The notes under the pieces are model-generated. The model searched no databases and had not been told where the DNA came from. It worked only from the letters and a program-made list of their open reading frames with translations. Shown here piece after piece: positions 1-43,022 of a stretch of DNA of 43,248 nt. Both the position numbers and the translations under genes were made by a program. The stretch lies in the NCBI GenBank assembly GCA_017472145.1, contig JAFUQX010000043.1, forward strand, positions 1 through 43,248. Reading direction: 5' to 3'. Numbering within the stretch: position 1 is the first letter of the stretch; every line of letters begins with the position of its first letter. This DNA comes from Ruminococcus sp. GTDB lineage: Bacteria > Bacillota > Clostridia > Oscillospirales > Ruminococcaceae.

Positions 1-1829
1 CCGGACACGTTGACTTCACTGTAGAAGTTGAGCGTTCCCTGCGTGTACTGGACGGTTCTGTAACTGTACTTTGTGCAAAGGGCGGCGTTGAGCCGCAGTC
101 TGAAACCGTATGGCGTCAGGCTGATAAGTATCAGGTTCCGAGAATGGCTTATGTCAACAAGATGGACATCATGGGCGCTAACTTCTACCGTGTAGTTGAA
201 ATGATGCGCGACAGACTGAAGTGTAATGCTGTTCCGATTCAGCTGCCGATCGGTGCTGAGGACGAATTCAAGGGCATCATCGACCTGGTTGAGATGCAGG
301 CTTATGTATATTACGATGACCTGGGCAAGGACATCCGTGTTGAGGAAATTCCGGAAGACATGGTTGAAAAGGCTGAGGAGTATCGTGAAGCACTGATGGA
401 ATGTGTTGCTGAGCAGGATGACGAACTGATGGAAAAGTACTTCGCAGGCGAAGAGATCACCATCGACGAAATCAAGGCTTGCATCAGAAAGGCAACCATT
501 GCAAACGAAATGGTACCGGTAGTTTGCGGTACTTCTTATAGAAATAAGGGCGTACAGAAGGTTCTGGATGCAATCGTAGATTATATGCCGTCTCCGCTGG
601 ATGTACCGGCAATCAAGGGCGTAAACCCGGATACTGATGAAGAAGTGGTTCGCCACTCTTCTGATGATGAGCCGTTCTCCGCTCTGGCGTTCAAGATTGC
701 AACTGACCCGTTCGTAGGTAAGCTCTGCTTCTTCCGTGTATATTCCGGTAGTGTACAGGCTGGTTCCACAGTTCTGAACGCAACAAAGGATAACAAGGAG
801 CGTCTGGGCAGAATCCTGCAGATGCACGCAAACCACAGAAAGGATATCGATGTAATCTACGCTGGTGATATCGCAGCTGCTGTTGGTCTGAAGAACACAA
901 CAACTGGTGATACACTGTGTGATGAAAAGCATCCGGTAATCCTGGAGTCTATGGAGTTCCCGGAGCCTGTTATTCAGCTGGCGATCGAACCCAAGACAAA
1001 GGCAGGTCAGGAAAAGATGGGTATTGCTCTGGCAAAGCTTGCTGAAGAAGACCCGACATTCCGTACCTACACTGACGAAGAAACCGGTCAGACCATCATC
1101 GCTGGTATGGGTGAGCTTCACCTGGATATCATCGTTGACCGTCTGCTCCGTGAGTTCAAGGTAGAGGCTAACGTAGGCGCACCGCAGGTATCCTATAAGG
1201 AAACCATCAAGGGCAGCGCAGATGTTGACTACAAGTACAAGAAGCAGTCCGGTGGTAGCGGTCAGTACGGTCACGTTAAGATCCGTGTGAACCCGAATGA
1301 GTCCGGTAAGGGCTATGAGTTCAAGAACTCCGTTGTCGGCGGTTCTGTACCGAAGGAATATATCCCGGCTGTAGATGCTGGTGTACGCGGCGCAATGAAG
1401 GCTGGTATCCTGGCTGGTTACGAGGTTGTTGACTGTACAGTTGAACTGTACGATGGTTCTTACCACGAAGTTGACTCTTCTGAAATGGCATTTAAGATCG
1501 CTGGTTCTATGGCATTCAAGGAAGCTATGCGTCAGGCAGAGCCGATTCTGATGGAACCGATCATGAAGGTTTCCGTAACGGTTCCGGATGATTACACAGG
1601 TACTGTAATCGGTGACCTGAGTTCTCGCCGTGGACAGATCCAGGGTCAGGAAGCAAGACCGGGTACTGTACAGGTTGATGCACTGGTTCCGCTGTCTGAA
1701 ATGTTCGGCTACACAAGCGATCTGCGTTCCAACACACAGGGACGCGGCCAGTATGCAATGGAGCCGCACAGCTATCAGGAAGTACCGAAGAACATCGCAG
1801 AAAAGATCATGTCCTCCAGAAAGAAGTAA
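1..1829 (+). CDS. fusA: Elongation factor G, 5' end cut off by the window edge
   Basis: EF-G is the cytoplasmic GTPase that drives tRNA-mRNA translocation on the ribosome. The reading frame is open from the first complete codon at position 3, which reads [11 protein letters not shown], the switch II/G3 region, so roughly 85 N-terminal residues including the P-loop lie outside the window. The 608 residues present contain the G4 motif NKMD (about codon 52), the G domain end, domain II, and the [10 protein letters not shown] and [11 protein letters not shown] stretches typical of domains IV-V. The total would be near 693 residues, normal for the family. tuf follows, as in the str operon (rpsL-rpsG-fusA-tuf). 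The identification is firm; the methionine at 144 is internal and not the start. Confidence 0.98.
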
Positions 1830-1837
1830 GACTTTCT

Positions 1838-1869
1838 GAAAAAAAGTTGATGAAAATCGCTCTTTTTTC
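1838..1869 (+). terminator. Weak A/T-only hairpin after fusA
   Basis: GAAAAAAAG at 1838-1846 can pair with CTTTTTTC at 1862-1869. The stem is almost only A-T and lies just before the tuf promoter. It may weaken read-through from fusA into tuf, but it is not a convincing intrinsic terminator. Confidence 0.3.
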
Positions 1870-1879
1870 AAAAAAGGAC

Positions 1880-1908
1880 TTGAAATTCTGTTTGAAATCT
1901 GGTACAAT
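1880..1908 (+). promoter_or_regulatory. SigA-type promoter of tuf
   Basis: TTGAAA at 1880-1885 and TACAAT at 1903-1908 are separated by exactly 17 bp. This predicts transcription starting near 1915, just before the hairpin at 1919. It gives tuf a promoter separate from fusA. Confidence 0.8.
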
Positions 1909-1918
1909 AGACTTAACA

Positions 1919-1942
1919 CGTGCAGTCTGAAGGGACTGCACG
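1919..1942 (+). promoter_or_regulatory. Hairpin at the 5' end of tuf mRNA
   Basis: CGTGCAGTC (1919-1927) and GACTGCACG (1934-1942) form a perfect 9-bp stem with a TGAAGG loop. No T-tract follows, so it is not a terminator. Its place within a few bases of the predicted transcription start suggests a role in stabilising the abundant tuf mRNA; this is inference. Confidence 0.6.
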
Positions 1943-1976
1943 GTAAGTTACTATAAAAAATAGGAGGAATAATCCA

Positions 1977-3176
1977 ATGGCTAAGGCTAAATTTGAAAGA
2001 AACAAACCCCACGTAAACATTGGTACCATCGGTCACGTTGACCACGGTAAGACAACTCTGACTGCTGCTATTACTAAGACACTGGCTCTGAAGGGTCAGG
2101 CTCAGTATGAGGCTTACGATATGATCGATAAGGCTCCGGAAGAAAGAGAGCGTGGTATCACAATCAACACTGCTCACGTTGAGTACGAGACAGACGTTCG
2201 TCACTATGCGCACGTAGACTGCCCGGGACACGCTGACTATGTTAAGAACATGATCACAGGTGCTGCTCAGATGGACGGCGCTATCCTGGTAGTAGCTGCT
2301 TCTGACGGCCCGATGGCTCAGACTAAGGAGCACATCCTGCTGGCTCGTCAGGTAGGCGTACCGGCCATCGTTGTATTCATGAACAAGGCTGACCTGGTAG
2401 ACGACGAAGAGCTGCTGGAGCTGGTTGAAATGGATATCCGTGACACTCTGAGCGAATATGAGTTCCCGGGTGATGACATTCCGGTTATCACTGGTTCTGC
2501 TCGTGCAGCTCTGGATGCTCCGGACGATCTGTCTGATCCGGCTTATGCACCGATCATCGAACTGATGGACAAGGTTGACGAATACATTCCGACACCGGAG
2601 CGTGACGACGCTAAGCCGTTCCTGATGCCGATCGAGGATACAATGACCATCTCTGGCCGTGGTACTGTAGTAACAGGCCGTGTAGAGAGAGGTAGACTGA
2701 ACGTTAACGAAACAGTAGAGATCGTTGGTCTGTCTGAGGAGAAGTCCTCTACAGTTGTAACTGGTATCGAAATGTTCCGTAAGACTCTGGATTCTGCTGA
2801 AGCTGGTGACAACATCGGTGCTCTGCTCCGTGGTGTTACTCGTGACAACGTAGAGCGTGGTCAGGTTCTGTGTAAGCCGGGCTCCATTCACCCGCACACC
2901 AAGTTCAAGGGCCAGGTATACGTTCTGAAGAAGGAAGAAGGCGGCCGTCACACACCGTTCTTCAACAACTACAGACCGCAGTTCTATTTCAGAACAACTG
3001 ACGTTACCGGCATCATCACTCTGCCGGAGGGCGTTGAGATGTGCACACCGGGCGACAACGTTGCTATGGACGTTGAGCTGATTTCTCCGATCGCTATCGA
3101 AGAGGGCCTGCGTTTCGCTATCCGTGAGGGTGGCCGTACAGTAGGTTCCGGCGTTGTAACTGCTATCAACGAATAA
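1977..3176 (+). CDS. tuf: Elongation factor Tu
   Basis: EF-Tu is the GTPase that delivers aminoacyl-tRNA to the ribosomal A site. The 399 residues match family length. The sequence shows the P-loop GHVDHGKT (residues 19-26), the switch I end RGITI (59-63), DCPGH (81-85) and NKAD (136-139), followed by the two beta-barrel domains. The ATG start is set by AGGAGG at 1962-1967, with 9 bases of spacing. The gene has its own promoter and leader hairpin upstream and a strong terminator downstream, so it can be expressed as a single-gene unit as well as by read-through from fusA. Nothing in the protein looks unusual. Confidence 0.99.
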
Positions 3177-3197
3177 TCATTCACTGAATGAATCAAT

Positions 3198-3229
3198 AAG
3201 AGGGGCGAGCATATGCTTGCCCCTCTTTT
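3198..3229 (+). terminator. Intrinsic terminator of tuf
   Basis: AAGAGGGGCGAGC (3198-3210) pairs with GCTTGCCCCTCTT (3215-3227) around an ATAT loop, with one G-T wobble, and runs into a TTTT tract. It closes the str-type unit before the dcw cluster. Confidence 0.9.
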
Positions 3230-3339
3230 GTATTCTGTGGAACAGGAAAGGATTTCCAAAGGGGAGCGGTTTGTTTGAAATGCACAAAAAGAGGATTGAT
3301 TTTTAGCGGAATTTTTTAAGGGATTTGAGGAGCGCCTTA

Positions 3340-3368
3340 TTGCAATTTTTTTTCATATCATGTATAAT
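3340..3368 (+). promoter_or_regulatory. SigA-type promoter of the dcw cluster (mraZ promoter)
   Basis: TTGCAA at 3340-3345 and a perfect TATAAT at 3363-3368 are 17 bp apart. Transcription should begin near 3375, so the MraZ-type boxes lie at and just downstream of the start site. This is the first promoter of the mraZ-ftsZ cluster. Confidence 0.85.
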
Positions 3369-3372
3369 AGGT

Positions 3373-3420
3373 ATAGTGGTGAAAAGTGGGCCGGATTCCC
3401 TGAAAGTGGGAGAAGGTGGA
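3373..3420 (+). promoter_or_regulatory. Putative MraZ operator: four GTGG boxes on a 10-bp grid
   Basis: ATAGTGGT (3373), AAAGTGGG (3383), AAAGTGGG (3403) and AAGGTGGA (3413) place GTGG at 3376, 3386, 3406 and 3416. The spacing is 10, 20 and 10 bp, with the fifth grid position at 3396 empty. MraZ proteins are known to bind short direct GTGG/TGGG repeats about one helical turn apart upstream of their own gene. Here the boxes overlap the predicted transcription start, which fits autorepression. The assignment combines visible repeats with known family behaviour. Confidence 0.75.
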
Positions 3421-3457
3421 AGCTTGTGCCGCAAATACCCGGGAGGAAAGGCGGTTT

Positions 3458-3892
3458 GTGAAAATGGCATCGTTGATGGGTACCTATTACCATACTGTGG
3501 ATGCCAAGGGACGAGTAAACTTTCCCACAAAGCTCCGTGAAATCCTGGGAACCTCCTTTTATGTGACCAAGGGCGTGGATTATCCTTGTCTTTCCGTCTA
3601 TTCCCAGCAGGAATGGGACAGGCTTTCTGAGAAGATCGATTCACAGCCGGAGGCCAAGGCCGCCATTCTCAAGCGGTGGCTGTTTGCAGGTGCGTGCGAG
3701 GTTACGCCGGACAAGCAGGGACGGATTCTGATCCCGCAGGATCTGCGTACCTTTGCAGGACTGACAAAGGATCTTGTAATCATCGGCGCAAGCAACAAGG
3801 CTGAGATATGGGACAGCCAGCGCTGGGAGGAAATGAACAGCAGTATTGATATGAACGATCTGCTGGCCACGATGAATGAGTTGGGCTTCTAA
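3458..3892 (+). CDS. mraZ: Transcriptional regulator MraZ
   Basis: MraZ is a DNA-binding protein of the AbrB/MazE-like fold that represses the dcw operon. Two copies of its signature DxxxR motif are visible: VDAKGRVNFP near the N-terminus and PDKQGRILIP in the second half. A GTG start at 3458 gives 144 residues, the usual size, and is favoured because GGGAGGAAAGG lies about 11 bases upstream. The in-frame ATG at 3464 is too far from that site, and a start at 3416 would fall in the operator boxes. It is the first gene of the cluster, 9 bases before rsmH. Its likely targets are the GTGG boxes at 3373-3420. Confidence 0.95.
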   Translation: MKMASLMGTYYHTVDAKGRVNFPTKLREILGTSFYVTKGVDYPCLSVYSQQEWDRLSEKIDSQPEAKAAILKRWLFAGACEVTPDKQGRILIPQDLRTFAGLTKDLVIIGASNKAEIWDSQRWEEMNSSIDMNDLLATMNELGF

Positions 3893-3901
3893 GGCGGTGG
3901 A

Positions 3902-4828
3902 ATGATGGAATTTGTACATATACCGGTTCTGCTGGATGAGGTTCTGGAGGGCCTGAATATCAGGCCGGATGGGATCTATGTTGATGGAACCGTTGGCGGT
4001 GCAGGGCATTCCCGTGAAATTGCAAAGCGCCTGACAGCAGGCGGGCTGCTGATCGGTCTGGATCGGGATCCGGATGCAGTGGCTGTGGCTCGGGAAAGAC
4101 TGGCGGATGCTCCGGCCAGAGTCTTTCATTGTAACTATGACGAAATGCGGAGTGTATTGGATGAGCTGGAGATTCCGGCGGCAGACGGTATTCTGATGGA
4201 TCTGGGGGTTTCTTCCCACCAGCTGGATACAGAGTCCCGGGGATTTTCCTACCATGCCGATGCGCCCCTGGATATGCGCATGAGCCAGACCGGGCTCAGT
4301 GCCGCCGACCTGGTGAATACCTGGCCGGAGAGTGCTATTGCGCAGATATTATTCTCCTATGGCGAGGAGAAATTTGCACGCAGCATCGCCCGGAATATTG
4401 CGGCGGCCCGTGCAGAAAAGCCGATTACAACCACTCTGGAGCTGGCGGAGATCGTGAAAAACAGCGTTCCCCAGCGAGTCCGGAGAGAAAAAAATCCCTG
4501 TAAAAAAACGTTTCAGGCCATCCGTATTGCAGTAAACGGTGAGTTTGAGCATCTGGAACAGGGGCTTGAGGCTGCATTCCGGTGTTTAAAGCCGGGAGGA
4601 CGTCTTGCGGTGATCACCTTCCATTCGCTGGAGGATCGCATTGTCAAAAAGCAGTTTGCAAAATGGTGTCAGGGCTGCATATGTCCGCCGGATTTTCCCC
4701 AGTGCGTCTGCGGGAGAGAGCCGGAGGGTCAGCTTGTAAACCGCAAGCCGCTTGTTGCTTCAGAGACGGAGCTGAATGAAAATCATCGCAGCCGCAGTGC
4801 AAAGCTGAGAGTGATAGAGAGGAGATAA
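3902..4828 (+). CDS. rsmH: 16S rRNA (cytosine1402-N4)-methyltransferase RsmH
   Basis: RsmH (MraW) uses SAM to methylate N4 of C1402 in the 16S rRNA decoding centre. The 308 residues match the family (about 310). Visible motifs are HIPVLLDEVL at the N-terminus, the SAM-binding VDGTVGGAGHS, DRDPDAV, the ILMDLGVSSHQLD block and the C-terminal ITFHSLEDRIVK. Two adjacent ATG codons (3902, 3905) are possible starts behind GGCGGTGG. It sits in its standard place between mraZ and ftsL, 9 bases after mraZ and 6 bases before the next gene, whose ribosome binding site lies inside the end of this gene. Confidence 0.98.
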   Translation: MMEFVHIPVLLDEVLEGLNIRPDGIYVDGTVGGAGHSREIAKRLTAGGLLIGLDRDPDAVAVARERLADAPARVFHCNYDEMRSVLDELEIPAADGILMDLGVSSHQLDTESRGFSYHADAPLDMRMSQTGLSAADLVNTWPESAIAQILFSYGEEKFARSIARNIAAARAEKPITTTLELAEIVKNSVPQRVRREKNPCKKTFQAIRIAVNGEFEHLEQGLEAAFRCLKPGGRLAVITFHSLEDRIVKKQFAKWCQGCICPPDFPQCVCGREPEGQLVNRKPLVASETELNENHRSRSAKLRVIERR

Positions 4829-4834
4829 TCTGTT

Positions 4835-5320
4835 ATGGCGGAGCAGCGTGAGGATCTGCAGAAGGAAAAGACGCCGCAGACCGCAGCAGAAGTTCAATCT
4901 GCACCGAATGGAAAAACGCAGAAGCAAAAAGGAATATTCTATATTGCGCCCAAAAAGAGAGGGCAGGCCTTTAAAATCAGTATTGTCAGCATACTGACCG
5001 TAGGCTTGTTTTATATTGTAATCAACAGCTATGTTCAGCTGAATGAGGTTTATTCGGATATATCTGAGGCTACAGCAGAGCTTAACGAGCTGCGCAGTGA
5101 AAATGTGCGTATGCAGACGGAGCTGGAGGGTCAGGCCTCCATCCGCAATATCAAGGAATATGCAGAGGAACGCCTGGGACTCCAGAAGATCGATCAGTCT
5201 CAGATACAATATATACAGATACAGACAGAGGACGAGGTAATCGTTGAGGAGCCGGAACAGAATATTTTTATCAAGCTCAAACGCTGGTTTGTGAATCTGA
5301 TAGAATATCTACGAGGGTAA
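4835..5320 (+). CDS. ftsL: FtsL-like bitopic cell division protein
   Basis: A 161-residue protein with a charged cytoplasmic tail (1-45), one membrane segment (about 47-66) and an extracytoplasmic coiled coil (about 68-105) rich in Leu, Glu and Asn. This is the layout of FtsL/DivIC septum initiators, which activate the FtsW-PBP synthase pair in the divisome. FtsL sequences are poorly conserved, so the call rests on topology and on the position between rsmH and the PBP gene. The ATG at 4835 is preceded by AGAGAGGAGA within the rsmH stop region, indicating coupling. The tail after the coiled coil is acidic and long (about 110-140), somewhat longer than in Bacillus FtsL. A DivIC-type role cannot be excluded. 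Confidence 0.8.
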   Translation: MAEQREDLQKEKTPQTAAEVQSAPNGKTQKQKGIFYIAPKKRGQAFKISIVSILTVGLFYIVINSYVQLNEVYSDISEATAELNELRSENVRMQTELEGQASIRNIKEYAEERLGLQKIDQSQIQYIQIQTEDEVIVEEPEQNIFIKLKRWFVNLIEYLRG

Positions 5321-5672
5321 CTGGCATAGTATGTACAGATCAGACTGTACGCTTTATTGATGCTGCTATCGGCAAGTGCTTATGCATAGATAAATATATT
5401 TGCCGTTAGTATAAAAAAAGAAAGAGATGCGAAATCGGGTGTCGGAAAAATGGGATCAAACCGTGCGGAGCGTGCTTGCGTCGGACAGACGGGCATGCTC
5501 TGCGGTATGATTCCGCAATAGGTTAAACAGGAAAGGAACCGTTTCCTGTTTAATGATGAATTCCTGTCTGAATGGGACAGTTTGTTTATAGGGGCGGGGT
5601 ATTTTCACGGATTCCCGCCTTATTCTATTTATTTTCAGATTCTGGAAATAAGCATGAGAGAGGAGAAAGAAC
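5321..5672 (+). other. 352-bp non-coding gap in the dcw operon with five hairpins
   Basis: No convincing gene lies here. Successive inverted repeats are: GTACAG/CTGTAC (5333-5350); a long imperfect stem 5460-5506 with an inner CGTC/GACG tip; a perfect 12-bp stem TTAAACAGGAAA/TTTCCTGTTTAA (5523-5553, 7-base loop); CTGTC/GACAG (5564-5580); and GGCGGG/CCCGCC (5593-5619) followed by a T-rich stretch. A 27-codon frame (5427-5510) overlaps the second hairpin but has no usable ribosome binding site. The stretch could be a structured leader of the PBP gene, a processing or attenuation site, or an inserted repeat. Confidence 0.6.
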
Positions 5673-8024
5673 GTGCCGAAAACAGAAAAGGACGAGGTTA
5701 TCAAGAACGGGGCCGCCAAGGATAACCGGCCTACGGCAAGAATGAAATCACATCTGAATATAGGTGTTATTTCACTGATGGTTTTGATCTGTGCAGCGGT
5801 TGTGGTCAATTTGTTTAAGGTATCTGTGATAGACCATGCAAAATATGAGGGCCTGGCGAATAATTATCACTTTGGAACGCTGACGCTGGAGGCTCAGCGC
5901 GGTGCGATCTATGATGCGGCCGGTACGCCTCTTGCATGGAGTGCCACTGTGTATAATGTATTCATCGATCCTACCCTGTTCCGCGAGGAAATGCAGGAGG
6001 TCGAGGAATCGAACGAAGCCAAGCGCAAATCTGCGCAGGAAAAGGGCGAAACGCCGGATAATCTGATCAACATTGAAAATCTGAAATCCTCCATTGCAAA
6101 CTATCTTGCCAATAAGCTGGATATTGAGGCCGAGGAGGTTCTGGAAGCCTTTGAAAAGGACGGCCGCTATTATGTGCTTCAGACACAGGTGGAGAAGAAC
6201 GTAGCGGATGAGATCATGGCTTATTTCAGCGATATGAATCTTGTGTCCTTTGCTACACAGGCCTCCACCAGAAGATATTACCCTCAGAATGAGCTGGCCG
6301 CCAGCGTGATCGGCTTTACAAACAGTGACGGAAACGGCCAGTATGGCCTGGAATATCAGTATGATTCCTATCTGTCCGGTGTGGACGGCCGTGTTGTATC
6401 GGCACAGGCGGCCAACGGCGAGGAAATGCCCTATCGGTACTCCACTACATACGATGCGGAGAACGGCGATTCTCTGTATCTGACCATTGATACCACGATC
6501 CAGTATTATCTGGAAAAGGCTCTCAGCGAAATGGTAACAGAGTTCAATGTGCAGGAGCGGGCCTGCGGAATCATCATGAATCCCAAGACCGGTGCGATCT
6601 ATGCAATGGCCACCTATCCTTCCTTTGACCTGAACAGCCCCTCTGAGATCTATGATGAGGCTACCGCACGGGAGCTGGCGGCTCTCAGCGGTCAGGACTA
6701 TACGGATGCCTATCTTGCGGCCCGGGAGCTTCAGTGGAAGAACAAGGCGACCCAGGAGATCTACTATCCGGGTTCTGTATTCAAGGTAATTACCAGTGCA
6801 GCTGCCTTTGATGAGAAGCTGATCGATCTGAAGGCGACCATGTTCACTTGTGATGGTGTATTCCCGGTTGAGGATGCAAAAATTCACTGCTCCAACCGAA
6901 GCGGTCATGGTACACAGAATTTTACCACTGCGCTGACCAACTCCTGTAACCCTGCATTCATGGCGATCGGCCTGCGTATCGGCGGTGAGCGTTTTTATCA
7001 GTATATGGACGGCTTTGGCCTGACAGAGGTGACTGGTATCGATCTGCCCGGCGAGTCCAGCAGTATTCATGTAAATGCTGACATGTCCAAGGTCGACCTT
7101 GCGTCCTCCTCCTTCGGGCAGGTAAATAAGATCACTCCGATCCAGATGATCACGGCTTATGCGGCCACTATCAACGGCGGTACGCTTGTTGAGCCTTATG
7201 TGGTGGATAAGATCGTTGATGAGGCCGGCAACGTGGTGGAGGAGCACCAGGTTGAGATCAAGCGTCAGGTCGTTTCTGCGGAGACCTCTGAGATCATGCG
7301 GGAGCAGCTGGAGGCGGTCGTTGAAAACAACAACGGACACAATGCGCATATTGATGGATATCGTATCGGCGGTAAGTCCGGTACATCTGAGAAGCTGGAC
7401 CTGTACAGCGCAGAGGACGAGGCCGGAATGGAATATGTTGCCTCCTACTGCTGCTTTGCACCGGCAGATGATCCGGAGATCATTCTCCTGATCATGGCAG
7501 ATGAGCCGGATAAGAGCATCAATTACTACGGCGGTGCGGTTGTAGCGCCCTATGCAAGAAATGTTATGGCCGATGTGCTGCCCTACCTGGGTTATTATCC
7601 TGAAACGGATAATATTGTGCAGTCCAATAATGTAACGGTTCCTTTGCTTCAGGATCAGTCTTTGACCGAAGCACAGGCGACTCTGACGGAGCTGGGACTG
7701 GAATATCAGGTCGTAGGAGATGGCTCTACGGTTATCCGTCAGTGCCCGAAAACAGGCTCCAGTGTATCCAAGGGCGGCGTTGTGCTGCTTTATACAGACA
7801 GCGAAGCAGAGCCGCAGTATACAGAGGTGCCGAACCTGCTGGGAATGACCGCAGCTGAGGCCGATGTGGCCCTTCAGGGGGCCGGACTCAATATTGTAAC
7901 CATTGGTGCATCTGCGGAGAATGCAGAAGCCAGGGTACAGTTCCAGTCTGAGCCGGAGGGAACGCAGGTCGAAGTGGGAACCGTAATCAGTCTGACGATG
8001 ACCATTAACGACCAGACGGGATAA
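5673..8024 (+). CDS. Class B penicillin-binding protein with two PASTA domains (FtsI/SpoVD type)
   Basis: A 783-residue septal or spore-type transpeptidase that cross-links peptidoglycan outside the membrane. Residues 30-50 form the single membrane anchor. A dimerisation/pedestal domain follows, then the transpeptidase domain with SVFK (368-371; the active Ser is 368), SCN (424-426) and KSG (568-570). Two C-terminal PASTA domains lie at about 653-709 and 715-777; these bind muropeptides or modulate the synthase. The start is GTG at 5673, behind AGAGAGGAGAAAG. Position between ftsL and murE fits a division PBP (pbpB/ftsI) or SpoVD; the cluster has only one such gene, so it may do the septal job. 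A 352-bp structured gap precedes it. Confidence 0.95.
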   Translation: MPKTEKDEVIKNGAAKDNRPTARMKSHLNIGVISLMVLICAAVVVNLFKVSVIDHAKYEGLANNYHFGTLTLEAQRGAIYDAAGTPLAWSATVYNVFIDPTLFREEMQEVEESNEAKRKSAQEKGETPDNLINIENLKSSIANYLANKLDIEAEEVLEAFEKDGRYYVLQTQVEKNVADEIMAYFSDMNLVSFATQASTRRYYPQNELAASVIGFTNSDGNGQYGLEYQYDSYLSGVDGRVVSAQAANGEEMPYRYSTTYDAENGDSLYLTIDTTIQYYLEKALSEMVTEFNVQERACGIIMNPKTGAIYAMATYPSFDLNSPSEIYDEATARELAALSGQDYTDAYLAARELQWKNKATQEIYYPGSVFKVITSAAAFDEKLIDLKATMFTCDGVFPVEDAKIHCSNRSGHGTQNFTTALTNSCNPAFMAIGLRIGGERFYQYMDGFGLTEVTGIDLPGESSSIHVNADMSKVDLASSSFGQVNKITPIQMITAYAATINGGTLVEPYVVDKIVDEAGNVVEEHQVEIKRQVVSAETSEIMREQLEAVVENNNGHNAHIDGYRIGGKSGTSEKLDLYSAEDEAGMEYVASYCCFAPADDPEIILLIMADEPDKSINYYGGAVVAPYARNVMADVLPYLGYYPETDNIVQSNNVTVPLLQDQSLTEAQATLTELGLEYQVVGDGSTVIRQCPKTGSSVSKGGVVLLYTDSEAEPQYTEVPNLLGMTAAEADVALQGAGLNIVTIGASAENAEARVQFQSEPEGTQVEVGTVISLTMTINDQTG

Positions 8025-8127
8025 TACGGAACAGGGAAGTCCCTGCTTGTGAAAATACAGAACAGTATATTATGCGTCTGCGGAGCAATAATACGATGGA
8101 AGCAAACGTATGAAAGGCGGTATACTT

Positions 8128-9570
8128 ATGCGGTTATATGAATTGCTGGAAGGCAGAGTGCAGACAGCACTGGAGAATATAGAAATTACCGGACTGACGG
8201 ACGATTCCCGCTGTGTCCAGGAGGGCTGGCTCTTTATCTGTGTAAAGGGCGGCCGCTTTGACGGCCATACCGTTGCAGAGAAAATGCTGGAAAAGGGTGC
8301 GGCCGCTGTTGTGGCTGAGCGGGATCTGGGACTGGGCGACCGGCAGATCCTTGTGGAAAATACGCGGGAATTCTATGGTGATCTTTGTGCGGCCTGGTTC
8401 GGGCATCCGGAGCGGAAGCTGCATTTCATCGGCGTGACGGGTACAAACGGCAAGACCACCATCACCAGCGTCATCAAGTACCTGCTGACAAAGGCAGGAC
8501 ATCGTGTGGGACTGATCGGCACGATTCAGAATGAGATCGGCGACAGAGTGCTCCACACGGACAATACCACGCCCATGGTCTATGACCTGATGAAGCTCTA
8601 TGCGGAAATGGCCGAGGCCGGCTGTGACTATGCAGTCATGGAGGTTTCCTCCTTTGGTCTGGTGCAGTACCGCATCGGCCCGACTCATTTTGATACTGCT
8701 GTGTTTACCAACCTGACCCAGGATCATCTGGACTATCACGGCGATATGGAAAGTTACTATCAGGCCAAGCGCATGCTCTTTGACCGCTGCGACTATGCCG
8801 TTGTAAATACGGATGATGTCTATGGACGACGCCTTTTTGAGGAGATCTCCTGCAAAAAAGCAAGCTACAGCAGCTGCGGACGTGCGGATTTCTATGGAGA
8901 TGCCATCCGGCTCCGGGCTGACGGCACCAGCTTCTGGCTGTGCTGTGGTGAGAAATCCTATCAGGTCAGCGTGCACATGACAGGCATGTTCAACGTGGCC
9001 AATGTCATTGCGGCCATCGCCGCAGGACTGAATTCCGGCCTGAACATGGAGCAGATGCTGGAGGCGCTCTCCGGATATACAGGGGTAAGAGGGCGGTGTG
9101 AGGTCATTCCCACAGGGAAGGATTTTACCGTGATCTGCGACTATGCCCACACGCCGGATGCAGTGGAGAATATCCTCAGCAGCGTGAAGGAATATACAGA
9201 GGGCAGGCTCATTGCGCTCTTTGGATGCGGCGGCAACCGGGATCGCACCAAGCGGCCGAAGATGGCCAGAGCGGCGGCTAAGTACGCAGACCTTCTGATC
9301 GTTACCTCCGATAATCCCCGTGACGAGGATCCGGAGGAGATTATTGCAGAGATCCTCACCGGTCTGACCGGAACGGATGTTCCCTATGAGGTGGTTGTGG
9401 ATCGTAAGGAGGCTATTTTCCACGGCATGAAGCTGGCTCAGCCCGGAGATGTCCTGGTTCTGGCCGGCAAGGGACATGAGGATTACCAGATTCTGGCCGG
9501 CGGGGTTCACGTTTCCATGGATGAACGTGAAATTGTAAAGGAATGGCTGCCGTTTCTGGATGCAGAATGA
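8128..9570 (+). CDS. murE: UDP-MurNAc-tripeptide synthetase MurE (meso-diaminopimelate type)
   Basis: MurE adds the third stem-peptide residue to UDP-MurNAc-L-Ala-D-Glu using ATP in the cytoplasm. The ATP loop GVTGTNGKTT is at 102-111. YQAKRMLFD carries the lysine region that is carbamylated in the family. DNPR at 395-398 is the signature for meso-diaminopimelate as substrate rather than L-lysine. The ATG at 8128 (480 residues) is preferred to the one at 8110, because AAAGGCGG lies at 8113-8120 and the residue order MRLYELLEG matches family N-termini. It lies 103 bases after the PBP gene and 21 bases before murF. Confidence 0.96.
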   Translation: MRLYELLEGRVQTALENIEITGLTDDSRCVQEGWLFICVKGGRFDGHTVAEKMLEKGAAAVVAERDLGLGDRQILVENTREFYGDLCAAWFGHPERKLHFIGVTGTNGKTTITSVIKYLLTKAGHRVGLIGTIQNEIGDRVLHTDNTTPMVYDLMKLYAEMAEAGCDYAVMEVSSFGLVQYRIGPTHFDTAVFTNLTQDHLDYHGDMESYYQAKRMLFDRCDYAVVNTDDVYGRRLFEEISCKKASYSSCGRADFYGDAIRLRADGTSFWLCCGEKSYQVSVHMTGMFNVANVIAAIAAGLNSGLNMEQMLEALSGYTGVRGRCEVIPTGKDFTVICDYAHTPDAVENILSSVKEYTEGRLIALFGCGGNRDRTKRPKMARAAAKYADLLIVTSDNPRDEDPEEIIAEILTGLTGTDVPYEVVVDRKEAIFHGMKLAQPGDVLVLAGKGHEDYQILAGGVHVSMDEREIVKEWLPFLDAE

Positions 9571-9591
9571 TAAATTTGGGAGAATGATAAC

Positions 9592-10971
9592 ATGGAAAAG
9601 CTATGTTTGACAGAAATTGCTGAAGCGGTGGGCTCATCTGCACCGCTGGAGGCAGAAATTACAATGATCAGTACCGATACACGCAATATGCCGGAGGGCT
9701 GTCTGTTTCTGGCCCTCAAGGGCAAGCACTTTGACGGCCACAGCTTTGCAAAGAGAGCTGTGGAAAATGGTGCGGCTGCGGTTGTCGTTGAATATGAGAT
9801 AGAAGGCTGTCCGTGCATCGTTGTGCCGGATACAGGCCGTGCACTGCTTCAGATCGCCGCCTGCTACCGGAAGAAGTTTTCTCCGGTGCTGGTGGGCGTA
9901 ACCGGAAGCGTGGGCAAAACCACCACAAAGGAAATGATCGCCGTGGTTCTTTCAGCTGCCTATGAAACGCTGAAGACACAGGGCAATCTGAACAATGAGA
10001 TCGGTCTGCCCAAGACCCTTATGGAGCTTGGCTCTCAGCATGAGGCGGCTGTCATTGAGATGGGTATGTCTGATTTCGGGGAGATCCACCGCCTGAGCTG
10101 CACCACGCAGCCCACCATTGGTGTGATCACCAACATCGGCTATTCCCACATCGAGCACCTGAAGTCCCAGGAGGGGATTCTTCAGGCGAAGCTGGAGATC
10201 CTGGACGGCATGGCAGAGGATGCGCCGCTGGTTGTGAATGGCGACGATGTGCGTCTTGCGCCCCTGAAGGAGCAGCTGACCCGTCCGGTGATTACATACG
10301 GTCTTGAGAATGACAAGGCTGATGTCCAGGCCGCTGATATTCAGGCGGAGGAAAGCAGTACCTCCTTTACCGTACTTGACAAGGGCCAAAAGGCCTGCCG
10401 GGTGACCCTTCCCTGTGTGGGAATGCACAATGTGCTGGATGCGCTGGCCGCTTACTGTGCCGGCCGTCTGGCGGGCGTTGAGCCTGAGAAGATCGCCAAG
10501 GCCCTGGGTACATACAAGACCGTAGGCTTCCGCCAGAATATCGAGCAGCACGGCCCCTATACCGTGATTGCTGACTGCTATAATGCAAGCCCGGATTCCA
10601 TGAAGGCGGCCCTGCATGTGCTGAGGGAGATGAAGTCCTCCGGACGGAAGATCGCTGTTCTGGGTGATATGCTGGAGCTGGGCGATCTGTCCCGGAAGCT
10701 CCATGAGATCGTGGGCGATATGACGCTCATGAGCGATGCTGACCAGATTTTCTGTTACGGCGATCAGTCCCGGTTCATTGCCGGGAAGGCCTCCGAGGGC
10801 GGTGCGTCTGTGTTCCATACAGAGGATGCGACAGAGCTTTGCTGTGCGATCCGTGCCTATCTGAGACCGGGTGATCTGCTGCTGTTCAAGGCCAGCCGCG
10901 GTATGCATCTGGAAGAATGCATCAAGGAAATATTCAGACAGGAGGATGAGCAGAATGCCGTTCTGGATTGA
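9592..10971 (+). CDS. murF: UDP-MurNAc-tripeptide:D-Ala-D-Ala ligase MurF
   Basis: MurF completes the cytoplasmic muropeptide by attaching D-alanyl-D-alanine. The protein has 459 residues, the usual length, with the Mur-ligase ATP loop GVTGSVGKTT at 102-111, EMGMSDFGEIH in the central domain and DCYNASPDSM in the C-terminal domain. The N-terminal domain repeats the pattern seen in MurE (LFLALKGKHFDGH). The last 17 bases overlap the start of mraY, and the mraY ribosome binding site lies inside this gene, so the two are probably translationally coupled. Confidence 0.97.
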   Translation: MEKLCLTEIAEAVGSSAPLEAEITMISTDTRNMPEGCLFLALKGKHFDGHSFAKRAVENGAAAVVVEYEIEGCPCIVVPDTGRALLQIAACYRKKFSPVLVGVTGSVGKTTTKEMIAVVLSAAYETLKTQGNLNNEIGLPKTLMELGSQHEAAVIEMGMSDFGEIHRLSCTTQPTIGVITNIGYSHIEHLKSQEGILQAKLEILDGMAEDAPLVVNGDDVRLAPLKEQLTRPVITYGLENDKADVQAADIQAEESSTSFTVLDKGQKACRVTLPCVGMHNVLDALAAYCAGRLAGVEPEKIAKALGTYKTVGFRQNIEQHGPYTVIADCYNASPDSMKAALHVLREMKSSGRKIAVLGDMLELGDLSRKLHEIVGDMTLMSDADQIFCYGDQSRFIAGKASEGGASVFHTEDATELCCAIRAYLRPGDLLLFKASRGMHLEECIKEIFRQEDEQNAVLD

Positions 10972-37654: not shown

Positions 37655-37909
37655 ATGGTAAAAGGCGTGCATAAAAAAATCATTGAGGTGCGGAATCCGG
37701 GGAGCGAATATTTTGAGAAGGCGGTATTCTATCTGAAGCCGGGTGTGAGCCATCTTCCGCCCCAGATCGCAGAGGCGGCGGCGCAGATGCTTCTGGAGGA
37801 GCTGGAGCAGCCGCCCGCTTACCGGTGTGTCTGGAAAAAGGCCGCAGTCCTTGCAGGAGCAGGGCTGCTCATTACAGCGGTGTGCGTGTGTGCAGTTTTG
37901 CTGAGATGA
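37655..37909 (+). CDS. Small tail-anchored membrane protein, unknown function
   Basis: An 84-residue protein that I do not recognise. The first 58 residues are hydrophilic and include an NPGSEYFEKAVFYL segment and SHLPPQIAEAAAQMLLEEL; the last 22 residues (about 62-83) form one hydrophobic segment after a Lys-Lys pair, so it should be a C-terminally anchored membrane protein with its N-terminus in the cytoplasm. ATG 37655 follows AGGAGAGG. Codon use and the strong ribosome binding site resemble the neighbours, so it looks like a genuine gene. It lies alone between the acetylesterase and rlmB genes. Confidence 0.75.
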   Translation: MVKGVHKKIIEVRNPGSEYFEKAVFYLKPGVSHLPPQIAEAAAQMLLEELEQPPAYRCVWKKAAVLAGAGLLITAVCVCAVLLR

Positions 37910-38088: not shown

Positions 38089-38868
38089 ATGAGCCAGAAC
38101 AGACGAAATTCCCGCAGCCGGGATGCAGCATTACAGGAATCAGAGCAGCTGATTGCAGGACGCAATCCGGTACTGGAGGCGCTCAGGAGTGAGACGCTGC
38201 CGGATACAGTATATCTCAGCGGAAACGGCGGTGTGCTTCGTCAGATCTCTGAGCTGGCCAGGGAAAAGGGAATTCCCGTGAAAATGGTATCCGAGACCAA
38301 GCTGTCTCAGATGACAGGCAATGCCAACCATCAGGGTGCGGCGGCGTCGGGGTCCTGCGGCACCTATGTTTCCGTGGAGGAGATCTTACAGGCTGCGGCT
38401 GAAAAGAATGAGCCGCCGCTGATCGTGATTTGTGATGAGATCCAGGATCCGCACAATCTGGGTGCGATCATCCGTACGGCCGAGGCCGCCGGTGTTCATG
38501 GGATCATCATTCCAAAGCGCCGCAGTGCTTCTTTGAATCTGACAGTAGGAAAAACTTCGGCCGGAGCTGCAAGCTATATGCGTGTGGCCAGAGTTTCCAA
38601 TCTGGTTTCGACTATGGAAAAGCTGAAGGAAAACGGCGTCTGGATCTATGGAACAGATGCATCCGGCACAAACTATACGGATGCAGACTTCCGGAGCGGC
38701 ACAGCCTTTGTGATCGGCTCGGAGGGCTTTGGGATCGGACGTCTTGTGGGAGAAACCTGTGATGCAATGCTTCGTCTGCCTATGATGGGACGTGTGAATT
38801 CACTGAATGCATCTGTGGCAGCCGGAATCTTTATTTACGAGGCCGTCCGCCAGCGTCAGAAGGGCTGA
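38089..38868 (+). CDS. rlmB: TrmH-family 2'-O-methyltransferase, RlmB type
   Basis: A SpoU/TrmH-class enzyme with a knotted SAM site; RlmB methylates the ribose of G2251 in 23S rRNA. The 259 residues comprise an N-terminal substrate-binding domain (GRNPVLEAL, NHQGAAA) and the catalytic domain with DEIQDPHNLGAIIRTAEAAG (motif 1), FVIGSEGFGIG (motif 2) and MMGRVNSLNASVAAGI (motif 3). ATG 38089 follows AGGAGG (38075-38080). Other 2'-O targets are possible for this class, but the DPHNLG and NSLN pattern is typical of RlmB. It precedes the ATPase-like gene by 43 bases and may share its transcript. Confidence 0.93.
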   Translation: MSQNRRNSRSRDAALQESEQLIAGRNPVLEALRSETLPDTVYLSGNGGVLRQISELAREKGIPVKMVSETKLSQMTGNANHQGAAASGSCGTYVSVEEILQAAAEKNEPPLIVICDEIQDPHNLGAIIRTAEAAGVHGIIIPKRRSASLNLTVGKTSAGAASYMRVARVSNLVSTMEKLKENGVWIYGTDASGTNYTDADFRSGTAFVIGSEGFGIGRLVGETCDAMLRLPMMGRVNSLNASVAAGIFIYEAVRQRQKG

Positions 38869-38911: not shown

Positions 38912-41398
38912 ATGGCAAAACAGAAATTTACAGTAGAGGATATCCTCAGCGAGTACGGAGGGAATGACCCAAAAACGCCGTCAAAAACATCGACGCCCTC
39001 CGGAAAGCTGGAGGTGCATAAAATGCTCAGCCGTACTGCCGCAGGCACAGCACCGCAGTATGGCTCAGAGCGGCCGGCTTCCTTCCGGCGTGCCGAGGAG
39101 GAGTCGAAGATCAACCGCATCAAGCGTGAGGTGCGCTCAAACAGCAGCCGGCAGGACATCGAAAACAGCCGTGCTGCTGCCTTCCAGACGCTGGAGCTGA
39201 TGCGGGAAAAGGTTTCCTTTGTCAATTCACCGGCGGTGAATCCTCAGACAGCTCCGGCTCAGAAGAATGACCGGATCGAGGGCTACGAGGGTGCCGTCCG
39301 TGTGGAAGGGACAGCAGAAAAGGAAGGCTATCAGCCCCGGATCCGCACAATGGAGGATTCCACCCGGGCCAGGGAGGAGAAGGAGCAGTCGGGCAAGCGC
39401 CGCAGACAGCCGGACAATCGCCATCAGTACCGGAAGGATTCCTTCAAGGAGGAGGAAACCAGGGAAGCCTTTGAAGATACAGACGATGAAAAGCCCTTTT
39501 TCTTTGATCTGCATCATGCAGGTGCAGCGAAATATGTCAGCCGTGAGGCCAGAGAGGAGCGTGAACGCCGCCGCCGTGTGGCAGCCATTCACCGTCTCCG
39601 TCAGAAGCGCATGAAAATGCGTGAGCTGGAATCCGGCGATGAAAATGACGGACAAGCGGTGCATATTCCGAATAACGATTCGGAGATCCGTGCCAATATC
39701 AAAATTCTCACAAAAACAGTCATGCTCCGGACGGTGACCCTGGGTGTACTGTTTCTCATCGGTCTTGTGCTTTCTGTAGCAGAAGGCTCGGACAGCGCAT
39801 TTTTTCATGGCTTTGTGGATCTGATCGGCCTGCATGCCTACAGCCTGATCCATCTGGTTATGGGCATGACGGCGCTGATGATCTCGTTTCCCACTGTGGC
39901 CAATGGCCTGCGGTATATGTGCACCAAGCAGGCCGACAGTGACAGTATGGCGGCTGCACCCATTGCCGTTTCTACCCTGGGTGCGGCCATCATGACCCTC
40001 TTCCCGGAGAGCATGGAGCGGGGAGAGGCCCATCTGTTTGTTCCGGCAGCGATATTCATTCTGCTGATGAATTCTGTGGGCAAGCTGCTCATCATCCGGA
40101 GAGCAACGAGGAATTTCTCTGTGATCGCCAATGAATATGAGCAGTATGTGCTGACCTATGTACAGAACGAGGGCGATGCTGAAACGCTGACACGGGGCGT
40201 TATGAGAGACTATCCCATTCTGGTGTCTATGCGGAAGGCTCGTCAGATGAGCGATTTTCTGCGGTATACCTATTCGTCGGATCTGGGTGACCGGTTCTGC
40301 CGGAAGGCCGTTCCGATCATCGGAATTGCCGCTCTGCTGATTGCAGCCGGCATTACAGGGATCCGCTCCACGGTTATGCCGGGCACAGCGGTTCCGGGCT
40401 TTTTCTGCTCGGTGCTGTCTATGCTGCTCTGCGGCGGATGCTGCTCCGGTGTGATGCTGGTTGCGAATGTACCGCTGCTTTCTGCGGCGAAAAAGCTGTC
40501 TCCCCGGAAATGTGCCCTGCTGGGTTATCAGAGTGTAGACGAGTTTTATGATGGCAATTCCCTGCTGGTCAGCGCTTCGTCCCTGTTTCCGGAAACAGCT
40601 GTGATCATTGAGGGAATGAAGCCTTTTGCCGATGCAAGAATCGAGGATGTCATCCATGAGGCGGCCAGCCTTGTAAAGCAGGCAGACAGCATTCTGCAAT
40701 ATGCCTTTGACAAGATGGTGGACGAGGAAAACGGCCGGCTGTATCCGGTGGACAGTATCCTCTATGAGGAGGGACTGGGTCTGAGCGGATGGATTCAGAA
40801 CCGCCGTGTGCTCCTGGGCAGCCGTGAGATGATGCTGGCGCATAATATAGAGGGACTGCCCTCTCCGGCCAGAGAGGCTGACTATGCGGCAGATGGCTGC
40901 GATGTGCTCTATTTCTCTATCAGCGGCGTGCTTTCTGCGCTGATCCAGGTGCAGATCTCGGCCAATACCAAGATGAAGCGTCAGCTGCATCGGCTGATGG
41001 ATGAGAATATTTCATTGGTCGTGAAGTCCTGTGACTGTTTCCTGACCCAGCAGCGTCTGGCGGCGCTGTATCAGCTTCCGGAGAGCAGCATGAAGGTGAT
41101 CCCCCTTGCGCTTCATGAGACCTTTGATAAATACACTGAGCCTGCGGAGCGTGTGAGCGCCTCCATTATTGCTTCCGGTAAGATGGAGGATACAGTCGAT
41201 CTTCTGCTTCAGTCGAGAAAGATCCGCCGCAGTGCGATGACCGGTGTGATCTTACAGGCAGTGGCGGCGATGATCGGATTTGCCATTGCACTGATTTATA
41301 TCGGACTCAGTGCCTATACCAGCGTTACTTCAGAGATGTTCCTGTTATTCCAGATTGCAGCTTCGGCGATTACCGCTGTTGCAGTCCGCCTGAAGTAG
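38912..41398 (+). CDS. Large membrane protein resembling a P-type ATPase without catalytic motifs
   Basis: An 828-residue protein. Residues 1-265 are charged and probably disordered. About eight membrane segments follow (near 270-291, 305-328, 345-365, 375-395, 467-483, 492-520, 775-800, 806-826). The cytoplasmic part at 540-750 resembles the P and N domains of heavy-metal P-type ATPases: YEEGLGLSGWI, RRVLLGSREMM and ISGVLSALIQV align by eye. But DKTGT is replaced by SASSL near 554, TGES is missing from a shortened A domain, TGD reads SCD and GDGxNDAP is absent. It should not pump ions. Start ATG 38912 has AAGGAG 15 bases upstream. It may be a regulator or scaffold for the LCP gene next to it. 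The homology is a by-eye judgement. Confidence 0.65.
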   Translation: MAKQKFTVEDILSEYGGNDPKTPSKTSTPSGKLEVHKMLSRTAAGTAPQYGSERPASFRRAEEESKINRIKREVRSNSSRQDIENSRAAAFQTLELMREKVSFVNSPAVNPQTAPAQKNDRIEGYEGAVRVEGTAEKEGYQPRIRTMEDSTRAREEKEQSGKRRRQPDNRHQYRKDSFKEEETREAFEDTDDEKPFFFDLHHAGAAKYVSREAREERERRRRVAAIHRLRQKRMKMRELESGDENDGQAVHIPNNDSEIRANIKILTKTVMLRTVTLGVLFLIGLVLSVAEGSDSAFFHGFVDLIGLHAYSLIHLVMGMTALMISFPTVANGLRYMCTKQADSDSMAAAPIAVSTLGAAIMTLFPESMERGEAHLFVPAAIFILLMNSVGKLLIIRRATRNFSVIANEYEQYVLTYVQNEGDAETLTRGVMRDYPILVSMRKARQMSDFLRYTYSSDLGDRFCRKAVPIIGIAALLIAAGITGIRSTVMPGTAVPGFFCSVLSMLLCGGCCSGVMLVANVPLLSAAKKLSPRKCALLGYQSVDEFYDGNSLLVSASSLFPETAVIIEGMKPFADARIEDVIHEAASLVKQADSILQYAFDKMVDEENGRLYPVDSILYEEGLGLSGWIQNRRVLLGSREMMLAHNIEGLPSPAREADYAADGCDVLYFSISGVLSALIQVQISANTKMKRQLHRLMDENISLVVKSCDCFLTQQRLAALYQLPESSMKVIPLALHETFDKYTEPAERVSASIIASGKMEDTVDLLLQSRKIRRSAMTGVILQAVAAMIGFAIALIYIGLSAYTSVTSEMFLLFQIAASAITAVAVRLK

Positions 41399-41420: not shown

Positions 41421-43022
41421 ATGGATTTACGAAGAAACAATCAGAACCGTTCGGATGATAAGGAGACACAATATATTCCAGCACAGGCTCCGGTGAAAAG
41501 ATCCACAGACGGGTATGATACCCAGGAGCTGAGTGCAGCAGAGATCCGCAGACAAGCCCAGCAGGGGGGCGCTTCTGCTCAGAGACAAAGTCCGAATGCG
41601 TCCCAGCCGGGAGCACGGCCCTACCCTCAGAGCGGCGGCTATGCTCAGAATGGATATGGAAATGTGCCGCCCCAGCCGGGAGCACGGCCCTATCCCCAGA
41701 GCGGCGGCTACACTCAGAATGGATACGGAAATGTGCCGCCCCAGCCGGGAGTACGGCCCTACCCTCAGAGCGGCGGATATGCTCAGAATGGATACGGAAA
41801 TGTACCGCCTCAGCCGGGAGCACGGCCCTATCCTCAAAGCGGCGGCTACGCTCAGAATGGATACGGAAATGTGCCGCCCCAACCGGGAGCACGGCCCTAT
41901 CCCCAGAGCGGCGGCTACGCTCAGAATGGATATGGAAATGCGCCGTCCCAGCCGGGAGCACGGCCCTACCCTCAGAGCGGCGGTTATTCCAATGCACAGT
42001 CTTCTCATCGTCCTCCGTCCGGCGTACAGGGGCAGGGACAGCGTCCGGTGAAAAAGAAAAGATCCGGAACGCCTTTCTGGCAGAAGCTTTTGAAGGGACT
42101 TCTGTCCGTGATCATCATTGTATTCCTGCTCTATTCCGCAGTGGCCCTGGTCGGCATTTTTCGTGCGAATATCGTAACCACAGGTGTACGCAGCCGCACA
42201 GCGGATGCAGTGACATCCTCATCGGTGAACAACATCCTGGTGATCGGCACGGACTCCCGTGATATCGAAACGGATCCGGGGCGTTCGGATTCCATGATTC
42301 TGCTGTCTCTCAATTCTGAGACGAATACGATTTATATGACGTCCTTTCTGCGGGATGTATATGTTTATATCAGTGACGAGTATGGCTATGGTAAGCTCAA
42401 TGCCGCCTATTCCTATGGCGGCGCGGAGCTTCTGATGGACACCATCGAATCAAATTACAGAGTGAAGATCGATGACTATGTGACCATTTCCTTTGCGGCC
42501 TGTTCGGCGATGATCGATGCAGTGGGCGGTGTAGAGGTTACCCTTTCGGATGCGGAAGCCCAGGCGCTCAATGAGATCCTCATCAGTGAGGTGAATGAGC
42601 TGATGGGTGACGGCCGGAATGACGATCTGTTGGGCGGCGGCGGCACATATACTCTCAGCGGCAAGCAGGCCTTGTCCTACAGCCGTATCCGGTATGTGGG
42701 CAATGCGGACTTTGAGCGTACCAGCCGTCAGCGGGAGGTATTTTCCCAGGTGCTTCAAAAGGCCTCGAAGAATCCGGTTTCTCTGGGTGCTATGATGGTG
42801 AATGCGCTTCCCCAGGTAACAACCAATATATCTGTGCCGGAGCTGTATGGGTATTCCCTGAAGGCTCCGTATCTGCTTCTGGCCTATGATACAGCGCAAC
42901 AGCAGATTCCGGCGGAAAACACCTTTTATGCGGATACCATCGGAGGGGAGTCGGTGCTGGTGGCGGATTTCACCATGAATCACAATGTACTCCTCAGTAC
43001 GATTTTCAACGGAGAAGAATAA
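41421..43022 (+). CDS. LytR-CpsA-Psr (LCP) family cell-wall glycopolymer ligase with tandem repeats
   Basis: LCP enzymes transfer teichoic acids or polysaccharides from undecaprenyl carriers to peptidoglycan. The 533-residue protein has a long cytoplasmic tail containing five full and one partial copy of a 23-residue repeat rich in Gly, Pro, Tyr, Gln and Asn (62-189), a basic stretch, one membrane segment (about 226-247), and the LCP domain outside (from NNILVIGTDSRD near 269). Typical LCP blocks are GRSDSMILLSLN, MTSFLRDVYV, KLNAAYSYGG and the Arg-rich YSRIRYVGNADFERTSRQREVF. ATG 41421 follows AAAGGAG, 22 bases after the ATPase-like gene. The repeat tail is unusual for this family. Confidence 0.95.
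   Translation: MDLRRNNQNRSDDKETQYIPAQAPVKRSTDGYDTQELSAAEIRRQAQQGGASAQRQSPNASQPGARPYPQSGGYAQNGYGNVPPQPGARPYPQSGGYTQNGYGNVPPQPGVRPYPQSGGYAQNGYGNVPPQPGARPYPQSGGYAQNGYGNVPPQPGARPYPQSGGYAQNGYGNAPSQPGARPYPQSGGYSNAQSSHRPPSGVQGQGQRPVKKKRSGTPFWQKLLKGLLSVIIIVFLLYSAVALVGIFRANIVTTGVRSRTADAVTSSSVNNILVIGTDSRDIETDPGRSDSMILLSLNSETNTIYMTSFLRDVYVYISDEYGYGKLNAAYSYGGAELLMDTIESNYRVKIDDYVTISFAACSAMIDAVGGVEVTLSDAEAQALNEILISEVNELMGDGRNDDLLGGGGTYTLSGKQALSYSRIRYVGNADFERTSRQREVFSQVLQKASKNPVSLGAMMVNALPQVTTNISVPELYGYSLKAPYLLLAYDTAQQQIPAENTFYADTIGGESVLVADFTMNHNVLLSTIFNGEE
41604..41987 (+). repeat. 69-bp tandem repeat inside the LCP gene
   Basis: Five complete 69-bp units (41604-41948) and one 39-bp partial unit code QPGARPYPQSGGY followed by AQNGYGNVPP. 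Units differ mostly at silent positions, plus a few residue changes (A to T, A to V, V to A, P to S). Being in multiples of three, copy number can change without breaking the frame. Confidence 0.97.

Follow-up and report, generated by a model that had tools for sequence, protein, structure and literature searches.

A single-copy relative of heavy-metal P-type ATPases that has probably lost its pumping role in the Oscillospirales

Heavy-metal ATPases and degenerate P-type proteins

P-type ATPases are defined by aspartyl-phosphate chemistry, and what their motifs and those of HAD enzymes do is general knowledge. The closest described systems to the protein family considered here, which we call pseudo-P1B-ATPases, are the P1B pumps represented by CopA and ATPase-IB_hvy (PRK10671, TIGR01525; 3rfu), with which it shares the eight-helix layout, the domain order, the N domain and the aspartate of the TGD motif. 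In contrast to these pumps, the family lacks DKTGT, CPC, TGES, GDGxND and HP, most of its actuator domain and the second part of its P domain have been deleted, and it possesses a charged N-terminal tail with a short motif.

P-type proteins that depart from the standard pumps have been described elsewhere. For instance, the animal protein ERMA/TMEM94 reportedly carries the degenerate motifs DKQGI and GSSANL and lacks TGES; its nucleotide pocket is reported to be closed to Mg-ATP and the protein is reported to be a Mg2+ transporter (PMC13322241). ERMA/TMEM94 and the bacterial family both combine a P-type architecture with degenerate catalytic motifs, by which no kinship of the two is implied. 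However, the eukaryotic protein keeps the A domain and the Asp, whereas the bacterial family has lost the Asp in about half of its members. ERMA/TMEM94 serves as a warning that transport can outlast degenerate motifs (PMC13322241). A second case is the guanylyl cyclase alpha of Plasmodium, whose P4-ATPase-like domain keeps the Asp and is taken by the authors to be catalytically active (PMC7858053). The point of likeness is the use of a P-type ATPase domain together with signalling; unlike the bacterial family, the Plasmodium domain keeps the Asp and is fused to a cyclase. A bacterial family of pseudo-P-type ATPases was not found in the open-licence PMC literature and may be published elsewhere.

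Ancestry, architecture and catalytic motifs

The window, i.e. the whole stretch of DNA that was analysed, comprises 43,248 nucleotides of contig JAFUQX010000043.1 from Ruminococcus sp. (Oscillospirales; Ruminococcaceae). Its positions 144-10971 (+) have the appearance of a cell-wall and division cluster, with genes for EF-G, EF-Tu, a MraW methylase, a PASTA-type penicillin-binding protein and two Mur ligases. The pseudo-P1B-ATPase gene, assigned by profile, alignment and motif evidence, occupies 38912..41398 (+) and encodes 828 aa (coding sequence 38912-41395, stop codon to 41398). An AGGAG-type ribosome site precedes its ATG, which lies 43 bases past the stop codon of rlmB, and the gene ends 22 bases ahead of an LCP-family gene. 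A promoter scan found 4 sites compared with 3.9 expected, and a phage origin was rejected, the PHROGs search having given no match. An antisense open frame of 587 aa at 39227-40990 (-) inside the gene is probably a codon-usage shadow.

For the protein alone, no Pfam family gives a match at the cut-off of that family, the best NCBIfam match is CopA (PRK10671; E 2.2e-6, residues 569-724), far below the PRK10671 cut-off, and in the PDB the copper ATPase 3rfu is matched at E 1.7e-3. A profile of 43 family members (A1) matches 3rfu at E 4.6e-42; the alignment is collinear for helices 1-4 and for the part from M3 to the P and N domains, but weak for the last two helices. The best PDB matches of this profile are P1B ATPases, and other P-type ATPases rank below with short and weak matches. 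Moreover, when 89 members were aligned by HHalign to 27 genuine P1B ATPases of the same order, the probability was 99.9% over 533 columns, versus 0.1% for a control with an RlmB alignment. Among the 43 profile members, 31 match PRK10671 and 27 match TIGR01525 at E <= 0.001, and no Pfam family matches more than two of them (E <= 0.01). The family thus almost certainly descends from P-type ATPases, to judge from these comparisons, as the sequence-only reading of this stretch had proposed from the membrane layout and the N-domain-like blocks YEEGLGLSGWI and RRVLLGSREMM, both of which are found in the translated ORF.

A tree was calculated from 31 members (30 random ones and that of the window), the 27 P1B ATPases and 2 other P-type ATPases. 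All sampled members of the family fall into a single group (support 100/100), and the family, the P1B ATPases (support 87/59) and the two other P-type ATPases come out as three groups with long branches. The tree is compatible with an origin of the family inside or outside the P1B branch. The case for a P1B origin is made by profile scores and layout, which make a descent from this heavy-metal branch very likely.

The protein can be divided along the lines of a P1B ATPase. Its charged N-terminal region (about residues 1-262; 38912..39697, +), which is probably disordered as judged from its composition, has a basic stretch at its end before the first membrane helix. The first four hydrophobic segments (residues 263-398; 39698..40105, +) match the segments MA, MB, M1 and M2 of P1B ATPases. 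They are followed by a remnant loop where the actuator domain would be (residues 399-460; 40106..40291, +), from which TGES and most of the domain have been deleted; the M2-to-M3 span has 78 residues compared with 143 in genuine P1B ATPases. The M3-M4-like helices (residues 461-530; 40292..40501, +) have lost the CPC metal site, and at the degenerate phosphorylation site (residues 554-560; 40571..40591, +) SASSLFP replaces DKTGTLT in the joint alignment. Alignment and conservation delimit an N-domain-like region (about residues 575-684; 40634..40963, +), in which SI replaces HP, and Asp708 (41033..41035, +) aligns with the TGD aspartate. The last two hydrophobic segments, which are M5-M6-like (residues 774-828; 41231..41395, +), were recognised by hydropathy, the alignment with 3rfu being weak there. 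Altogether, hydropathy and alignment predict eight hydrophobic segments that fit the 4+2+2 layout of P1B ATPases, a count obtained by grouping 14 overlapping raw hydropathy segments, one pair of which lies inside the N domain. The same simple scan gave varying segment counts among other members, and only the protein of the window was used for the count. The labels MA, MB and M1-M6 are those that we take to apply to these segments.

The joint alignment allows the motifs to be followed through the family. The 89 members were fetched from the matches and chosen for spread, and are not a random sample. The genuine P1B set consists of 27 frames from 27 genomes of the same order (L118-L144) that were picked as holding DKTGT; none of the 27 genuine loci tried was discarded for lacking it, and the partial loci L145-L147 were excluded. 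DKTGT is in place in 0/89 members and in 27/27 genuine pumps, picked for it as they were, and the string DKTG occurs in 3/89 members, only within the N-terminal tail. TGES is in place in 0/89 members (89/89 gapped) versus 25/27 pumps, and the Mg-binding loop GDGxND in 0/89 (89/89 gapped) versus 27/27. The CPC-type metal site of the sixth helix (0/89 versus 27/27), the HP of the nucleotide-binding domain (0/89 versus 26/27), the full TGD (0/89 versus 27/27) and the Lys of HAD motif III (1/89 versus 27/27) are lost as well. In the protein of the window, SASSL is aligned at DKTGT, and TGES and GDGxND have no counterpart. It had indeed been noticed from the sequence that DKTGT, the TGES loop and GDGxNDAP are missing. 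For TGES one correction applies: its absence follows from the loss of most of the actuator domain and is not confined to the motif. Compared with genuine P1B ATPases, two deletions are apparent, of 62 columns in the actuator domain and of 32 in the vicinity of GDGxND, the alignment being approximate in the deleted regions and individual gap borders uncertain.

Other positions have been kept or newly acquired. The DKTGT Asp column holds Asp in 43/89 members and Ser in the protein of the window, an assignment that is uncertain in that 71/89 members have an Asp close by. The TGD Asp is kept in 86/89 members. At the end of the phosphorylation loop, a new pattern, (L/I/V)FP, is present in 71/89 members (53 + 11 + 7), with its Phe kept in 81/89. 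The first half of the P domain (mean 1.98 bits) and the N domain (1.99 bits) are the best-conserved regions, compared with 1.1-1.6 bits elsewhere. The HAD motifs are eroded too: Asp of motif I is found in 43/89 members and Lys of motif III in 1/89, and motif IV is deleted in 89/89, which is why an activity as HAD phosphatase was rejected. With the actuator domain mostly gone, the Mg loop gone and, in the protein of the window, the nucleophile gone, neither the P-type cycle nor HAD chemistry as known should be available, and we consider it very probable that the family performs no P-type or HAD catalysis.

This leaves two further ways in which the retained parts might work. The protein could still transport a metal or another solute as an unconventional carrier or channel, either without a phosphoenzyme cycle or by different chemistry. 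The eight P1B-like hydrophobic segments, the TGD Asp in 86/89 and the motif-I Asp in 43/89 members are compatible with such a function, as is the Mg2+ uptake reported for ERMA, which has DKQGI and GSSANL and no TGES (PMC13322241). However, CPC has been lost from all 89 members and the motif III Lys from 88/89, GDGxND has been deleted, with Ser at the Asp position in the protein of the window, and ERMA keeps the A domain that the pseudo-P1B family has mostly lost, so that transport appears unlikely. Alternatively, the retained N domain could bind a nucleotide or another small molecule and signal via the motif of the tail. In favour of such a ligand sensor, few parts of the protein are as well conserved as the N domain (mean 1.99 bits, 49/109 columns above 2 bits), with the second Gly of GxG in 87/89 and the Gly of GN in 89/89 members. 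On the other hand, the ATP-contacting His has been lost in 89/89 members and the first Gly of GxG in 57/89, and the retained glycines may be structural. We therefore regard a sensor as improbable, too.

Distribution, neighbourhood and selection

The family is an almost constant feature of the order. A profile search at E <= 1e-45, with up to 6 candidate places scored per genome, matched 184 of 197 sampled genomes of the order, with one match each, and among the matches listed nearly all are full length. Strong matches are present in 150/155 good-quality genomes and missing from 5/155; the 13 genomes of the order without a match at this threshold include five that are at least 90% complete. In G125, a genome 97% complete and without a clear copy, a 71-bit profile stretch with an internal stop (G125:C4:28479-29495) is possibly a remnant of the pseudo-P1B-ATPase gene, or it belongs to another ATPase. 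A search with the single protein (E <= 0.001) gave matches in 193/197 genomes of the same family, Ruminococcaceae, and in 178/197 genomes of the order; these matches are weak and not every one was inspected. When 23 genomes that were negative by single protein were searched again with the profile, 6 yielded full-length matches and 17 did not.

Beyond the order, the picture changes. In a sample of 245 genomes of the class, 9 genomes of the order match over the full length (375-699 bits), and the other 236 have no strong match (at most 139 bits, at profile positions of about 190-504). Likewise, 3 genomes of the order match fully in a sample of 299 genomes of the phylum, and the other 296 have no strong match (at most 131 bits). 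The two samples overlap partly, and at most 5 and 4 places were scored per genome, respectively, so that a weak copy could be missed. The weak matches outside the order were not counted as members, since the region of about 190-504 is the ordinary P-type ATPase signature. The genome of the window has 4 PF00122 matches, which represent genuine P-type ATPases, and TIGR01525, which also marks genuine P-type ATPases, exceeds its cut-off in 29/30 genomes of the order.

The most constant neighbour is rlmB (38089..38868, +; TIGR00186, E 1.9e-68), which encodes a 23S rRNA 2'-O-methyltransferase and lies directly upstream on the same strand in 85/87 loci, two of the 89 loci having too little upstream sequence. 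The exceptions are L072, with a broken frame, and L102, where the genes are 181 bases apart. L106, which was counted with rlmB, has a frame of 915 aa that matches RlmB less well and is preceded by a second RlmB frame. Over 85 loci, the RlmB and core distances are correlated (r 0.82; 0/1000 permutations as high), as expected if both genes have been inherited together, and the link to rlmB may reflect history rather than function. In pairwise comparisons, members share a median of 20% identity over the core, compared with 48% for RlmB, indicating that the body evolves fast. Upstream of rlmB, the window encodes a small protein (84 aa; 37655-37909, +) whose C-terminal part contains a single hydrophobic segment. 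Relatives of this small protein were found as 28 matching frames (E <= 1e-3), with some loci counted twice, and 26/28 precede rlmB on the same strand by at most 600 bases. L031 encodes a longer relative, for which Pfam gave no match.

Downstream, the LCP-family gene (41421..43022, +; PF03816, E 8.3e-36) is a local neighbour only. Ahead of a membrane helix, the encoded protein contains several nearly identical repeats, each about 26 residues long and of the PGARPYPQSGGYAQNGYGNVPPQ type. The sequence-only reading had correctly placed the gene 22 bases downstream and had taken the pairing as a clue to function at the envelope. The short distance, the presence of an LCP gene close by in near kin and the lack of a terminator-like site between the two genes on the + strand would suit a partnership with the LCP enzyme in the attachment of wall polymers. 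However, although 86/89 loci have at least 600 bases downstream, an LCP gene adjoins in just 10/89, all from the same genus or near kin in the same family, compared with rlmB upstream in 85/87. In seven other annotated loci, the downstream genes encode EF-G, an Era-like GTPase, YebC, Lon, a nitroreductase, a 4-alpha-glucanotransferase and a sortase (second in line), and a constant downstream partner was not found among the loci annotated. Thus, the pseudo-P1B-ATPase gene occurs throughout the order without LCP, a general LCP partnership was rejected, the pairing loses its value as a clue, and a function tied to the LCP enzyme is quite unlikely; a role of the protein at the envelope is conceivable.

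The gene has also been maintained by selection. Compared with the nearest relative, L031, the core has a dN/dS of about 0.14 (0.151/1.054) and the N region one of about 0.13 (0.143/1.127), from which it follows that the N region is under selection as strong as the core between near relatives; synonymous sites are saturated in comparison with L032 and L033. With the three near relatives, the protein of the window shares 69-76% identity in the core, along the whole length. The observation that the protein stays full length is thus borne out by purifying selection, and with DKTGT in place in 0/89 fetched relatives its absence is no local defect. One in-frame TGA is present in the pseudo-ATPase gene of L072 (G218). 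This TGA and the absence of every catalytic motif are what a decaying pseudogene or an assembly error might show, but the open frame in single copy throughout the order, the low dN/dS of about 0.14 and the full-length near relatives with 69-76% core identity leave hardly any room for it, and a local loss was refuted by the order-wide conservation.

The N-terminal tail and possible roles of the protein

The tail is one of the parts in which the protein differs from P1B pumps. The charged N-terminal region had been noticed before, and residues 1-255 indeed contain 38% D/E/K/R. In many members, the sequence starts with (F/Y)-x-(V/I/L)-acidic-acidic-I-L-x-E-(Y/F/H) or with a less stringent variant; in the window, the motif is FTVEDILSEY (residues 6-15; 38927..38956, +). 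The N region was defined as the open frame minus the last 575 residues and may include residues ahead of the true start. In 82 members the N region is at least 100 aa long. Among these, a strict motif rule is satisfied by 44, compared with 2/16400 shuffled regions, and a relaxed rule (VDDILxEY type) by 65, compared with 99/8200 (1.2%), with the reservation that both rules were written after inspecting the sequences, so that the comparison with the shuffles is somewhat too favourable. The relaxed-rule motif is missing in the remaining 17/82, and 7/89 members have an N region shorter than 100 aa or none. For instance, the open frames of L049 and L050 (family f10) comprise 554 and 553 aa without any tail, whereas the tails of other members comprise several hundred residues; the tail is therefore not essential everywhere. 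Among 3102 other frames of at least 100 aa at the loci of the family, the motif was not found (0/3102).

The conserved retention of a protein without P-type or HAD chemistry points to another use, and a conserved role other than pumping is likely on this basis. Among the possible roles, that of a membrane scaffold or regulator fits best, given that a membrane body is combined with a soluble domain that is conserved and a tail that bears the motif at its tip. We thus favour, by a little more than even odds, the reading that the pseudo-P1B-ATPase is a non-pumping membrane scaffold or regulator kept since before the order diversified; that it would act as such through the N-terminal motif is, on the available sequences, an evenly balanced proposal. 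According to this scaffold or regulator reading, the loss of pump chemistry from an ancestral P-type ATPase beside rlmB, most likely a P1B ATPase, would have preceded the diversification of the order, and the protein would since then have been kept as a single-copy, non-pumping membrane protein. The 8-helix body and the N domain could form a fixed platform, from which the cytosolic tail would reach out and bind a partner, or the protein's own head, by its FxV(D/E)DILxE(Y/F) motif. The N domain would then serve as a binding surface and not as a nucleotide-hydrolysing unit.

A more specific version is offered tentatively. In the ancestor of the order, a P1B ATPase may have become a docking platform in the membrane, the vacated head of which, with the LFP loop replacing KTGTLT, would hold or release the FxVDDILxEY motif, either its own or that of a partner. 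If this docking platform exists, it would be the P-type ATPase counterpart of the pseudokinases, and one that defines a clade.

Since Pfam matches are scant and the NCBIfam matches are to pumps, the gene may appear in databases as 'hypothetical' or as a misnamed metal pump. The organisms also carry genuine P-type ATPases, and the family thus offers a clean test of a pseudo-pump role. Moreover, an order-wide single copy without aspartyl-phosphate chemistry would mean that the P-type scaffold can be selected for something else.
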